A stretch of DNA of 64,000 nucleotides, taken from positions 1 to 64,000 of the forward strand of contig JAFDZS010000004.1 of NCBI GenBank assembly GCA_018266775.1. The letters are read 5' to 3'. This stretch comes from Bacteroidota bacterium (GTDB lineage: Bacteria > Bacteroidota > Bacteroidia > Chitinophagales > Chitinophagaceae). A model generated the notes under the pieces. It did not search any database. It had not been told where the DNA came from and was given only the letters and a program-made list of their open reading frames with translations. Both the position numbers and the translations under genes were made by a program. Positions 18,577 to 46,813 of the stretch are shown in pieces; within the stretch, counting starts at the first letter, position 1; every line of letters begins with the position of its first letter.

Positions 18577-19482
18577 ATGTACGCCACTAAAATTAAACTA
18601 TTGCTTGTTGCAGCTTTATTTACTATTAACATTGCTGCGGCTCAGGATATTAAAGAACCCAAACCCGGCTCAGCCGAATGGACACAGGATTTTATACCTT
18701 TCCGTATTGCCGGCAACCTGTATTATGTGGGCACCTACGATTTAGCCTGTTACCTGGTGGTAACCGACAAAGGCAATATTTTGATCAATACCGGGCTGGC
18801 GTCTTCTGCGGAGCAAATCAAAAAAAATATTACCACACTGGGGTTTAAATATACCGACATCAAAATTTTGCTGACCACACAAGCCCATTACGATCATGTT
18901 GGCGCTATGGCAGCCATTAAAAAAGAAACCGGCGCAACATTTATGGCCGATGCCGCTGATATAGAGACTTTGCAAAACGGCAGCGAAACGGATTATGCGA
19001 TGGGTGGTAAAGGCAAATTGTTTGTGCCCATTACTGTTGACCGTTCTTTGAAAAATAAAAGCGTCATCAAGTTGGGTGATACAAGGCTTACATTGCTGCA
19101 TCACCCCGGACATACCAAAGGTTCGTGCAGCTACCTGTTTACTACAAAAGACAGTTCAAAAAGCTACCGTGTACTTATCGCCAATATGCCGTCTATCATC
19201 ATTGATACACCTTTTGCTGCGGTAAATAACTATCCTGCTATTGCAAAAGATTATGCGTATACGCTGAAGTCGCTGAAGGCGTTGCATTTTGATATCTGGG
19301 TAGCATCGCATGCCAGCCAATTTGACTTGCACAGTAAATATCATCCCGGTGATGTATACAACCCGATGGCCTTTGCCGATCAAAAAGGATATGATGAAGA
19401 ACTGGAAAGTTTACAAAAGGCTTATGATGAGAAGATGAAGAAGGAACCAACTGTACCTTCAGGCTCCGGCTTGAAGCACTAA
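18577..19482 (+). CDS. Subclass B3 metallo-beta-lactamase, Gln116 (GOB-like) type
   Basis: A 301-residue protein. ATG 18577 gives a signal peptide (IKLLLVAALFTINIAAAQ); the open frame continues 28 codons upstream across the likely promoter. Zinc-site residues by B3 numbering: TTQAHYDHVGA supplies Gln116, His118, Asp120 and His121; HHPGHTKGS supplies His196; ASHASQFDLH supplies His263. Gln at 116 is the hallmark of GOB-type enzymes. It hydrolyses beta-lactams in the periplasm if active; relatives include chromosomal enzymes of environmental Bacteroidota. The last residues (VPSGSGLKH and the TAA stop) are encoded by the first palindrome of a tandem repeat, so the C-terminus has been set by that repeat. 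Confidence 0.9.
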   Translation: MYATKIKLLLVAALFTINIAAAQDIKEPKPGSAEWTQDFIPFRIAGNLYYVGTYDLACYLVVTDKGNILINTGLASSAEQIKKNITTLGFKYTDIKILLTTQAHYDHVGAMAAIKKETGATFMADAADIETLQNGSETDYAMGGKGKLFVPITVDRSLKNKSVIKLGDTRLTLLHHPGHTKGSCSYLFTTKDSSKSYRVLIANMPSIIIDTPFAAVNNYPAIAKDYAYTLKSLKALHFDIWVASHASQFDLHSKYHPGDVYNPMAFADQKGYDEELESLQKAYDEKMKKEPTVPSGSGLKH

Positions 19483-19713
19483 TAGTAATGAGTCAGCGAC
19501 TCAAGACCAAATCATCCTCGTCGGAGACGAGGATGATGTACCTTCAAGCTCCGGCTTGAAGCGATAATAACAGGAATGCGTCAGAGACGCATCACCACAT
19601 CATCCTCGTCGGAGACGAGGACGATGTACCTTCAAGCTCCAGCTTGAAGCGATAATAACGGTAATGCGTCAGAGACGCATCACTACATCATCCTCGTCAG
19701 AGACGAGGATGAT
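19453..19713. repeat. Three tandem copies of a triple-hairpin element
   Basis: Units 19453-19537, 19538-19625 and 19626-19713 (85, 88 and 88 bp) each begin GTACC and carry three hairpins. P1 is TTCAAGC/GCTTGAA with loop TCCG (TCCA in unit 3). P2 is ATGCGTC-AGA-GACGCAT; unit 1 has the different stem TGAGTC/GACTCA. P3 is ATCATCCTCGTC-GGA-GACGAGGATGAT, a 12-bp stem with a 3-nt loop. Unit 1 overlaps the 3' end of the beta-lactamase gene; unit 3 ends 8 bp before the TonB receptor stop. A single diverged copy is at 46627-46732. Confidence 0.85.
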
Positions 19714-19720
19714 GTAGTGA

Positions 19721-22222
19721 TCAAAACCGCGCCACTAATTTAAAATTCACCAGCCTTGGTGTTAAACGGTTGGGGATACTGTAAATGTTGTTGGCAAAAT
19801 CTTTAATAAGCTGGTAACTGATGGTATTGGGATGATCGATGAGGTTAAAGATTTCCAGGCTCGCCCAGATGTTTTGAAAATCCCGGAACGGGCTATGGCT
19901 CCTCCGCTCACTTTTCTCACTCAGCAATTGCACGCTGAAGCCCATATCAATCCTGATATAAGGATCAATGATGAGTGCATTCCTGTATTTCACACTGTTA
20001 GGAATATTGTAGGGCATATTGCTTCCATACAATGCATTCAGGTGCACTTTAAAATTTTTATTGGTGGGCAGGTAATCTTCCAAATACAATCCAACAGTAA
20101 TAAGCCTGTCGGTGGGGCGGCGCAACCAGCCTACATTTTGTTTAATACTGTCTACCGGAACCTGGTCGGCGCTTTTAGCAGTGATGATTTCTCCGGCTGC
20201 ATTTTTATATTGATAATAATAATCATTATCCAGGTTTTCCCTTGTGCGCATGAGGCCGATGCTGAGCCAGCTTTCTGCATCTTTCACCAGTTCGCCAAAT
20301 AAACGGGCTTCAACTCCTGCGGCATAAGCTTTGGCATTATTGTTACCGGCATAACGGATCTTTACATTGTCCACATCGTACACATCCACATCGGTCATGC
20401 CTTTGTAGTATGCTTCAGTAGTGATGCGGAAGGGGCGGGAATCGAAACCTTTAAAACTATAATCCATACCTGCAACCATCTGGTAACTTTTTTGTGCTTT
20501 CACTGCCGTGTTCAGTGTGCCATCATATCTTCTCAATTCACGATAGAAAGGTGGCTGGTCATACATGCCCGCAGCAAATTTCAGCAGCACATCTTTTTTC
20601 CATTTTGGTTTATAGCTCAATTGCATTCTGGGGCTTACCAAAAACTCTTTATTCAGCGAATTGTAATTATAGCGTACGCCTGCCTGTAAGGTGGTGTACT
20701 GGCTGCTTTTGCCGAGGCGGATGTTATCCTGCACATAACCGCTGTATTTTTGTACAGACAGATCGGCGGAAGATAATAAGGTCTTAAATAAATTCAGGTT
20801 GGCAGGATTATGGGGCAGTGAATAACCGGCACTGTCCTGGTATTCCCATTCCCGCAGGTGATCGTTGATGTTGGTTTGCTCAATGCTGTTGCCAAACTGG
20901 ATGAAGTGTTTGCCATTCTCGATACTGCCTTTTAATGCTGCGTTGTATACGGTGATGTCCAAAGCATTGCGGCCGTAGTTTTGGTAATAGCCTGCGCCAA
21001 GCGGATTAATGATCTGGCCATACGTACTGCTGGTATGATCAAAATCCCTGTCGCCAAAAAGATAAGAACCGGCAATGTCAAAATTTTCTTCTTCCTTATT
21101 TTCAAAACGGCTGAGCATCCACTTTAATTTCAGTTTTTTTGTTGGGGTGTACAACATACTCAATCCCACCATACTGGTGTTATAGCTATCCTGTTCTTTG
21201 CCTTCAAAATTGATATCAAGGCCAAGGCTGGCCGTAAATAATGGAGAAAATACTGATGTGGTTTTTTGTGCCGACTGTGGAAATAATGTAAACCGGGTAT
21301 TGGATAAATTGGTGAGCAACTCCAATTGTACATGATTACCCGCCTGCCAGGTTATATAACTTTGAATATCGGATGATGAAGGAATATACGCACCGGTGGT
21401 TTCCTGGCTGCTAAGTAAATTTTTATTGCTTTTGTTCCGCACGCCAAACAGATAAGTGACTTTACCTTTTTTGGCGCTGCCTTCCAGGTGCAAACCCTGT
21501 TCTAACAAACTTACATAAACAGTACCGCCAAAGCTGCTGGGTTTTTTATATTGAATATCCAGCACACTGCTCATCTTATCGCCATATTTTGCCTGGAAAC
21601 CGCCGTTATAAAAGTTAACATTCTTTGCCATTTCCGGATTAATAAAACTTAACCCTTCCTGCTGCCCGCTGCGGACAAGGTATGGACGAAAGATTTCAAA
21701 ATCGTTGATGTAAATTAAATTCTCATCATAGTTACCGCCACGTACACTGTATTGAGAGGTGAGTTCATTATTGCTGCCCACCAAAATTTTTATCAATCCT
21801 TCCACACCACCAATGGTGCTGGGCAACGTGATGGCATTTTTAGGGTTGATCCTGGTAAGGCCGGCTTCTTTGCGCTGGTTCTCATCACTAACGGTTACTG
21901 TTTCCAGTGTAATACCGCCTTTTGCCATGATTATGGTGGTATGTTCTTCTTCATTATTGCTGAGGTAAAAATTCTTTTGTGCTTCTTTAAAACCGGAATG
22001 GGTGAAGATTAAAGCGAAAGCTTTTTCAGCCGGAACGGTAATGGAAAAATGACCGCTGTCGTTAGTGATGGTGCCGGAAGATTTACCCAGTATCACTACA
22101 GAAACATTAGGGAGGGGTTTATCATTATCATCAGTAACGGTACCGGAAACCGTTGCCGTCTTTTTCTGTGCAACAGCGGTAAGGCATACAAATGATATGA
22201 GCAGGACAGAAAAAAATCTCAT
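19721..22222 (-). CDS. TonB-dependent outer-membrane receptor with CarboxypepD_reg-like domain
   Basis: An 833-residue protein with signal peptide (FSVLLISFVCLTAVAQ), an Ig-like CarboxypepD_reg domain (about 22-105, VSGTVTDDNDKPLPNVSVVI, then GHFSITVP), a plug domain (about 115-230, GGVEGLIKILVGSNNELTSQ, then YSVRGGNYDENLIYINDFEI) and a 22-strand-type barrel ending in LVNFKLVARF with the terminal Phe needed for outer-membrane assembly. It imports an unidentified ligand using TonB energy. There is no SusD partner beside it, so it is not a polysaccharide-utilisation pair; the ligand may be a siderophore, vitamin or peptide. Confidence 0.93.
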   Translation of the reverse strand: MRFFSVLLISFVCLTAVAQKKTATVSGTVTDDNDKPLPNVSVVILGKSSGTITNDSGHFSITVPAEKAFALIFTHSGFKEAQKNFYLSNNEEEHTTIIMAKGGITLETVTVSDENQRKEAGLTRINPKNAITLPSTIGGVEGLIKILVGSNNELTSQYSVRGGNYDENLIYINDFEIFRPYLVRSGQQEGLSFINPEMAKNVNFYNGGFQAKYGDKMSSVLDIQYKKPSSFGGTVYVSLLEQGLHLEGSAKKGKVTYLFGVRNKSNKNLLSSQETTGAYIPSSSDIQSYITWQAGNHVQLELLTNLSNTRFTLFPQSAQKTTSVFSPLFTASLGLDINFEGKEQDSYNTSMVGLSMLYTPTKKLKLKWMLSRFENKEEENFDIAGSYLFGDRDFDHTSSTYGQIINPLGAGYYQNYGRNALDITVYNAALKGSIENGKHFIQFGNSIEQTNINDHLREWEYQDSAGYSLPHNPANLNLFKTLLSSADLSVQKYSGYVQDNIRLGKSSQYTTLQAGVRYNYNSLNKEFLVSPRMQLSYKPKWKKDVLLKFAAGMYDQPPFYRELRRYDGTLNTAVKAQKSYQMVAGMDYSFKGFDSRPFRITTEAYYKGMTDVDVYDVDNVKIRYAGNNNAKAYAAGVEARLFGELVKDAESWLSIGLMRTRENLDNDYYYQYKNAAGEIITAKSADQVPVDSIKQNVGWLRRPTDRLITVGLYLEDYLPTNKNFKVHLNALYGSNMPYNIPNSVKYRNALIIDPYIRIDMGFSVQLLSEKSERRSHSPFRDFQNIWASLEIFNLIDHPNTISYQLIKDFANNIYSIPNRLTPRLVNFKLVARF

Positions 22223-46626: not shown

Positions 46627-46732
46627 GTACCTGCATGCTCCGGCATGCAGCAAAATTTGTATAATGTTACAGCATTATGTACTGGTCAGAGACCAGTAAC
46701 CAAATCGTCCCCGTCGGAGACGAGGACGATTT
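46627..46732. repeat. Single diverged copy of the triple-hairpin element
   Basis: It begins GTACC. P1 is CTGCATGC/GCATGCAG with loop TCCG (46631-46650). P2 is ACTGGTC-AGA-GACCAGT (46681-46697). P3 is ATCGTCC/GGACGAT around GTC-GGA-GAC (46704-46730). An extra hairpin ATAATG/CATTAT (about 46661-46678) lies between P1 and P2. Loops equal those at 19453-19713, while the P1 and P2 stems and part of P3 are different but still paired. It lies between the rplQ terminator and carA. Confidence 0.75.
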
Positions 46733-46813
46733 TAGCACCTGTGGCAAAATGTGAAAAATTTTATTTGCTGAAAATCATATCGAATTAGTTTCTTTGCAAA
46801 ATCTTTAAAATAA

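Follow-up and report, generated by a model that had tools for sequence, protein, structure and literature searches.

Known REP Systems and Their Transposases

The closest described relatives of the element treated here are the REP, BIME and REPIN repeats tied to RAYT (TnpA_REP) transposases: short palindromes in many, mostly intergenic copies, which occur as inverted pairs and arrays, flank the RAYT gene and have stems that are free to covary. All of these properties recur at the locus described below. The differences lie in design: a REP is built here of two hairpins that share an apex; GTAC (in the first hairpin, P1) or an ACCA/TGGT linker (between the second and third hairpins, P2 and P3, which lack a constant foot) stands where classical REPs have a GT[AG]G foot; and two REP families are hybridized in one unit.

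In a 2018 study, the RAYTs of Bacteroidetes were placed in subclass 2.6 (and 2.4). Subclass 2.6, which equals Bertels group 5, features NH[LIV]H, W-Q, YIH[QN]NP, an SS motif and an insertion between alphaC and beta4, and beside its genes lie 'atypical secondary structures', also described as weaker, that are copied in the genome and lack GT[AG]G; subclass 2.7, by comparison, features [ND]HVH, WQ and YI[LR][NQ]NP and has long canonical REPs with GT[AG]G (PMC6006769). The main text of that study mentions neither double hairpins nor GTAC. The same source describes hairpins with guide tetranucleotides at the ends of IS200/IS605 elements (PMC6006769). RAYT biochemistry has used proteobacterial hairpins with a GTAG foot in a cleavage/strand-transfer assay, and with a GTAC guide one system lost cutting, and in another the cut moved to GA or GT sites (PMC8266576).

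GTAG REPs, CGTC REPs and TIRtrons were described by Di Nocera (2013; PMC3733652). The TIRtrons resemble the present element in that tyrosine transposase genes lie within inverted repeats, some with two palindromes, and have genomic copies; in the sections of the source drawn on here they are named from pseudomonads, Stenotrophomonas and Acidobacteria, and we set them apart by description rather than by sequence. CGTC repeats occur in Bacteroidetes, with CGTC as an unpaired end tag, and the same sections report no transposase gene flanked by them (PMC3733652). In Chryseobacterium, a member of the Bacteroidota, RAYT genes have also been observed close to the gene of a multidrug pump, in a report whose available portion does not mention palindromes, hairpins or REPs (PMC11194056). 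GTAC is absent from the available text of PMC3733652 and PMC2817692, and among the records listed in our literature searches no title or abstract opening describes a double-hairpin REP or a GTAC foot. Since REP/RAYT systems and the atypical structures of subclass 2.6 have been published, the kind of element is known; as far as checked, the new details are those of design, namely paired hairpins with a common apex, GTAC as the foot and a unit that is a hybrid.

A Tandem Array of Triple-Hairpin Units

The window, a 64,000-nucleotide stretch of a Chitinophagaceae contig, contains three head-to-tail units at 19453-19716 on the forward strand, with start-to-start spacings of 85 and 88 bp, each beginning with GTACC and each comprising the hairpins P1, P2 and P3. 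In unit 1, P1 (19453-19476) consists of a GTAC foot (19453-19456) and the hairpin CTTCAGGC-TCCG-GCTTGAAG with one G-T mismatch; it is followed by P2 (TGAGTC-AGC-GACTCA, 19489-19503), an unpaired GACCA linker (19505-19509; family consensus AACCA) and P3, a long hairpin with the loop GGA (19510-19538). Unit 2 comprises P1 (19538-19561; GTAC foot and CTTCAAGC-TCCG-GCTTGAAG), P2 (ATGCGTC-AGA-GACGCAT, 19576-19592) and P3 (19598-19626), and unit 3 comprises P1 (19626-19649, loop TCCA), P2 (19664-19680) and P3, an inverted repeat with a perfect 20-bp stem (19679-19721) that extends to the stop codon of a convergent ORF (19721-22222). A fourth copy on the same strand (46627-46733) has its P1 at 46627-46650, a few bases past the T-run of a terminator-like hairpin, and its P2, linker and P3 at 46681-46731. 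The triple-hairpin units led by GTACC and the further copy, which had been proposed in a first-pass annotation, are thereby confirmed from the sequence.

That annotation had also described the tiny loops as constant (TCCG/TCCA, AGA or AGC, GGA). In units 1-3, the P1 loops are TCCG, TCCG and TCCA and the P2 loops AGC, AGA and AGA; the P3 loop, with GGA, GGA and AGA, is not constant, the exception being unit 3. Its observation that the P2 stem of unit 1 differs from that of the other units (TGAGTC/GACTCA vs ATGCGTC/GACGCAT) and still pairs is correct. Folded as DNA, 19453-19720 has a minimum free energy of -81.1 compared with a shuffled mean of -32.6 (z -13.9; 0/200 shuffles), and the RNA fold of the same segment is similarly exceptional (z -14.3; 0/200 shuffles). 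The window contains no match to an Rfam family at the gathering score.

The array sits between a putative MBL-fold ORF (18580-19482, forward strand, from ATG 18580; the listed ORF starts at GTG 18493) and the convergent ORF at 19721-22222, a putative TonB-dependent-receptor-like gene. Unit 1 is not wholly intergenic: the preceding ORF runs through its P1, with 19453-19479 encoding the last nine residues (VPSGSGLKH) and TAA following at 19480-19482. When the MBL-like protein was compared with the 15 other genomes of the genus that have a match, the alignments ended at query residues 286-298 (175 in one partial case), that is, near residue 292, the first that is coded by P1. The nine MBL-like orthologs examined are about 60-63% identical and have no TonB-like neighbor in the flanking DNA covered, so that neither an empty site nor any movement is seen among them.

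Copy Number and Covariation

A covariance model of P2-P3 (R1) was built from the four copies in the window and four copies beside a RAYT and was searched against the whole genome (5.08 Mb, 24 contigs). The search returned 62 rows at E<=0.1; after 20 rows that overlapped a better row on the other strand were dropped, 42 P2-P3 sites remained, each with E<=7.2e-7 and 34 of them outside the model-building set; this number is a lower bound, because 150 of 295 first-look candidates were scored. A P1 pattern allowing up to two mismatches matched 51 times, compared with 0 matches for the reversed pattern. The expectation of many copies in the genome is thus borne out, and triple units form arrays with a period of about 85-120 bp.

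Stem covariation, the second property anticipated in the annotation, is strong. In an alignment of the 42 copies (40 distinct rows; counts refer to sequences and not to independent events), 89.3% of pair cells form standard pairs compared with 74.7% in column shuffles, and the covariation score is 0.379 vs 0.128 in shuffles (0/500 reach it; 0.02-0.10 with slid partners). The P2 pairs 8-22, 9-21 and 10-20 show 59 double-sided changes among the distinct rows and neither a one-sided change nor a break. Among five whole-structure measures, the number of pairs with a double-sided change and the number of further pair types did not exceed shuffles (reached by 88/500 and 220/500, respectively). In P1, the three pairs left free by its pattern are Watson-Crick in 49, 47 and 45 of the 51 matches. 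The cells of P2 comprise 266 Watson-Crick pairs, 3 G-T pairs and 11 unpaired positions, and those of P3 comprise 410, 20 and 73; the scarcity of G-T intermediates would fit a DNA hairpin better than an RNA hairpin.

The balance between Watson-Crick and G-T pairs in P2 also bears on a structured 3'-UTR RNA, a terminator or mRNA stabilizer selected as RNA, which had been named as an alternative and which we now regard as improbable. Naive ORF calling places 17 of 21 P2-P3 clusters in the gaps between ORFs (the remaining four are overlapped by ORFs of 92-152 aa, which we take to be spurious), several touch the end of the adjacent ORF, and the neighbors are convergent at 8 clusters, tandem at 11 and divergent at 2. 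This placement would suit a 3'-UTR element, as would the very stable RNA fold given above and the view that REPs act as RNA elements in other bacteria (PMC3733652). However, at 4 of 17 clusters led by P1 a terminator-like hairpin precedes the element, which starts, with GTAC or a variant, directly at the T-run or within a few bases of it; the orientation of the element is variable, with 5 antisense to both neighbors vs 2 sense among the 7 tandem clusters that lie away from a RAYT and are not inverted pairs; and RAYT genes are associated with the element, although transcription of some copies would be compatible with this. The RNA reading is thereby weakened, and the REP reading advanced in the annotation, a non-autonomous element mobilized in trans, is supported by the copies, the covariation and the RAYT flanks, with the movement itself being what these observations would imply.

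The Double-Hairpin P2-P3 Module and the C23 RAYT

There are six Y1-transposase genes in the genome, and one of them, the RAYT gene on contig C23 (L004), has inverted P2-P3 pairs on both sides. R1 matches at E<=1e-3 flank this gene and its homologs with 78, 54 and 53% identity; no such match was found at the other 26 of 30 Y1-transposase loci searched (best 0.011). In a survey of 59 genomes, R1 rows at E<=1e-4 occurred in five, our own included (G000 49, G036 13, G035 9, G055 8 and G054 1; these rows include opposite-strand shadows, and with up to 93 candidates scored per genome under stricter filters the counts are lower bounds). Protein matches to the C23 RAYT at E<=1e-5 were present in 42 of the 59 genomes, the best being those of G000, G035 (78%), G055 (54%) and G036 (53%), and the four genomes with at least 8 R1 rows are the same four that have the best RAYT matches. 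G058, with a RAYT that is 53% identical, has no R1 row and, by eye, unlike double hairpins.

On these grounds, P2-linker-P3 is, as judged from its sequence, a double-hairpin REP of the Bacteroidota RAYT type found on C23. By its motifs this RAYT type appears closest to TnpA_REP subclass 2.6. The homolog in L096 (78% identical) has NHIH, FWQD, YIHQNP and YSSA together with a matching insert between alphaC and beta4, so that it shares NHIH, W-Q, YIHQNP and the SS motif with the subclass, as well as flanking structures that are copied in the genome. The W-Q position reads W then E in L097, K in L098 and T in L099, the Tyr motif of L099 is YIHENP, and the distance from HuH to Y, about 87, lies closer to the median published for subclass 2.4 (88) than to that for 2.6 (82; PMC6006769). 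The homologs in L096, L098 and L099 exceed the cut-off of the NCBIfam model REP_Tyr_transpos and that in L097 falls just under it (77 of 80 bits); four transposase chains in the PDB match the RAYT alignment weakly (E 0.0012 to 0.009).

The C23 copy itself contains NHLH, its frame ends before the Tyr motif and no single frame holds a complete HuH and Tyr core. The gene would therefore seem to be inactive at present (a sequencing error is possible as well), and because the part with the Tyr motif is missing from the frame, the present P2-P3 copies may be relics. The frame scores 59.7 bits with REP_Tyr_transpos (cut-off 80) and 29.2 with transpos_IS200 (cut-off 55). These scores, both under their cut-offs, bear on whether the repeats are end remnants of an IS200/IS605 insertion sequence or a MITE; hairpins with guide tetranucleotides are indeed found at such ends (PMC6006769), but the gene scores higher as a RAYT, and many short copies and arrays are not what paired ends of one cargo look like, which leaves this origin with the slightest of chances. 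Nor do we see much reason to assign the element to the CGTC-tagged REP superfamily without a dedicated transposase. The likeness consists of a CGTC motif (CGTC/GACG is prominent in P3), dimers and occurrence in Bacteroidetes (PMC3733652), but CGTC is the unpaired end tag of those repeats, described there as having no linked transposase, whereas here it is paired within the stem at the apex, beside the loop, and the elements flank a RAYT; we consider this assignment very improbable.

The RAYT of L006 was tried as the owner of P2-P3 and rejected, as its locus contains no R1 match up to E 1; where it aligns with the C23 copy, the identity is 30%. This RAYT (NHIH, YIHQNP; L006:1136-2683) is flanked by a 55-nt repeat in three copies.

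The P1 Module and the C21 RAYT

A second RAYT, on C21 (L005), is intact (201 aa; REP_Tyr_transpos 81.1 bits, cut-off 80), has the motifs NHVH, FWQE and YILQNP and adjoins an 81-bp array in which GTACC hairpins carry GCTCC tops. The flanking of RAYT genes by these same hairpins, P2-P3 at C23 and the P1 type at C21, agrees with the prediction that a RAYT would be found in the genome. P1 is thus identified, from its letters and from the same design at the C21 RAYT, as a REP with a GTAC rather than a GTAG foot.

Homologs of the C21 RAYT at E<=1e-25 were found in 42 of 396 genomes of the order (our own included). Beside the best match outside the genome (G403, 50% identity) lies GTACC and then CCGAAGC-TCCG-GCTTCGG, and the second best (L128, 51%, truncated flank) has no hairpin. 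Across 31 loci of the C21 type, which include our own locus (L125) and a distant one (L126), a GTAC foot is present in 32 of the 113 flank hairpins vs 3.7% in the control, with arrays counting many times; 77 of the 113 have some GTAN foot and 10 have GTAG or GTGG. The motifs of the C21 protein are thus of the kind listed for subclass 2.7, but the few GTAG or GTGG feet among its kin are unlike the canonical REPs of that subclass. Counted by locus, the GTAC foot occurs at 10 of 31, and 8 of 31 (L128 among them) are without any such hairpin.

The P1 core has 36 matches in the genome (1 for the reversed control), at most 2 in each of 58 relatives and 0 to 2 in each of ten further genomes, the single match in G403 adjoining its RAYT. 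A C21-type RAYT at E<=1e-10 is present in 2 of the 59 genomes, our own and one at 31% identity. The GTAC foot is of interest as the natural counterpart of the guide change that moved or abolished cutting in biochemical work on RAYTs (PMC8266576).

Double Hairpins at RAYT Loci Across Bacteroidota

A scan of named genomes was carried out with four RAYTs; among the matches listed, 526 of 590 stretches encode a relative, and the best 80 of these 526 were analyzed. Judged by record titles, these 80 loci are from Bacteroidota apart from one from Chlorobiota. A double hairpin, that is, two hairpins 2-15 nt apart and within 450 bp, was found at 51 of the best 80 RAYT loci (on both sides at 11), compared with none of 400 shuffled loci and 2 of the 67 outer flanks; some of these loci are close kin, and the counts of doublets do not represent independent events. 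The same arrangement is present at 7 of 25 loci of C23-RAYT matches from the 59-genome survey and at none of 3 IS200-type and 9 MBL loci. Since the other RAYT type, with REPs arranged in arrays, shows it at 11 of 31 loci, the double hairpin is not specific when taken alone.

The two hairpins of a doublet tend to share their tops. The apical 3 bp are identical within 28 of the 51 doublets, a number that none of 5000 permutations reached (maximum 20), compared with 4 of 51 for the basal 3 bp. Among the 42 copies in our genome, 28 have the same apical 3 bp in P2 as in P3, and 17 have the same loop in both hairpins. Each monomer of a RAYT dimer may recognize one hairpin apex; with paired, apex-sharing hairpins apparently in use by a RAYT clade found across Bacteroidota, this recognition rule is directly testable.

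Joining of the Two Modules

At 26 of the 42 P2-P3 sites, in 12 separate places, P1 lies upstream on the same strand. Upstream placement of P1 on the opposite strand occurs at a single site and downstream placement on that strand at 2, and at the 16 sites with P1 downstream on the same strand this P1 belongs each time to the next unit of an array; the same test of adjacency gave 0 of 840 in shuffles. The remaining sites include 9 that have an inverted partner, to which inspection by eye adds a tenth, and 6 with a degenerate P1 or nothing. P1 is found next to other palindromes as well, and some P2-P3 copies are paired in inverted orientation and lack P1.

What was first annotated as a single repeat element is therefore better described as a mosaic of two families, each with its own RAYT. 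We consider it highly likely that the element is BIME-like, combining the double-hairpin REP P2-P3 and the GTAC-REP P1; hairpin structure, copy number, stem covariation, association with RAYT genes and mixing of modules are the observations that carry this reading. Counted against it are the MBL-like orthologs without an empty site, the two whole-structure measures at the level of shuffles, G058 without R1, the broken frame of the C23 RAYT, the low specificity of the double hairpin, the presence of GTAC at 10 of 31 C21-type loci with 8 of 31 lacking a hairpin, and the occurrence of P1 beside other palindromes. RAYTs of the C23 and C21 types may mobilize the element, and the hybrid may move as one unit. 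In the scheme that we propose, hairpins would form when the strand is single-stranded, a RAYT dimer would recognize the apex common to the two hairpins, and the unpaired linker or foot would guide the position of the cut. Copies would then spread, mostly to places between genes, and there the P1 and double-hairpin modules would become joined and amplified in tandem as P1-P2-P3.

Whether the joined modules travel together is a separate matter. P1 and P2-P3 may not form one moving unit, but may have met at shared insertion hot spots such as terminators and the 3' ends of genes, or by one targeting the other, with the pair then frozen by tandem duplication; this is quite possible, if somewhat short of probable. 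The occurrence of P1 beside other palindromes suggests such a hot spot, and further points in this direction are the distance from P1 to the aligned 59-mer, which varies from 4 to 40 nt with intervening sequence that differs between loci, the inverted P2-P3 pairs without P1, and the presence of P2-P3 in G035, which has no P1-core match. The strong bias in strand and position, with P1 upstream on the same strand at 26 copies in 12 places vs 1 on the opposite strand, argues otherwise. An extended form of the mosaic, in which Bacteroidota RAYTs of the C23 clade use a two-hairpin unit with the same apex for each monomer, and in which this unit, in our genome, is fused with the GTAC-REP of a second, distantly related RAYT, moves as one and could be served by either enzyme, is speculative and on balance unlikely.

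Several further repeats were recorded. Palindromes of the type CATGGTCAGACGTSGACGTCAGACCAT and their kin adjoin P1 at C20:73k, C13:63k, C22:41k and C6:40k (L052, L046, L056 and L040, respectively) and are further modules of the mosaic. At L033 (C2:282k), behind P1-P2-P3 come a P2-like hairpin and a P1, both inverted, so that the whole is almost one large inverted repeat. Other repeats lie near Y1-transposase genes, namely a 41-bp tandem array (AATTCGTGTAATCCGTG...) at L001:3041-3339, a 16-bp tandem repeat (TTGAATTGCTCCGGGT) at L001:1330-1411 and, at L002:1959-2382, two 208-nt direct repeats that are 98% identical.
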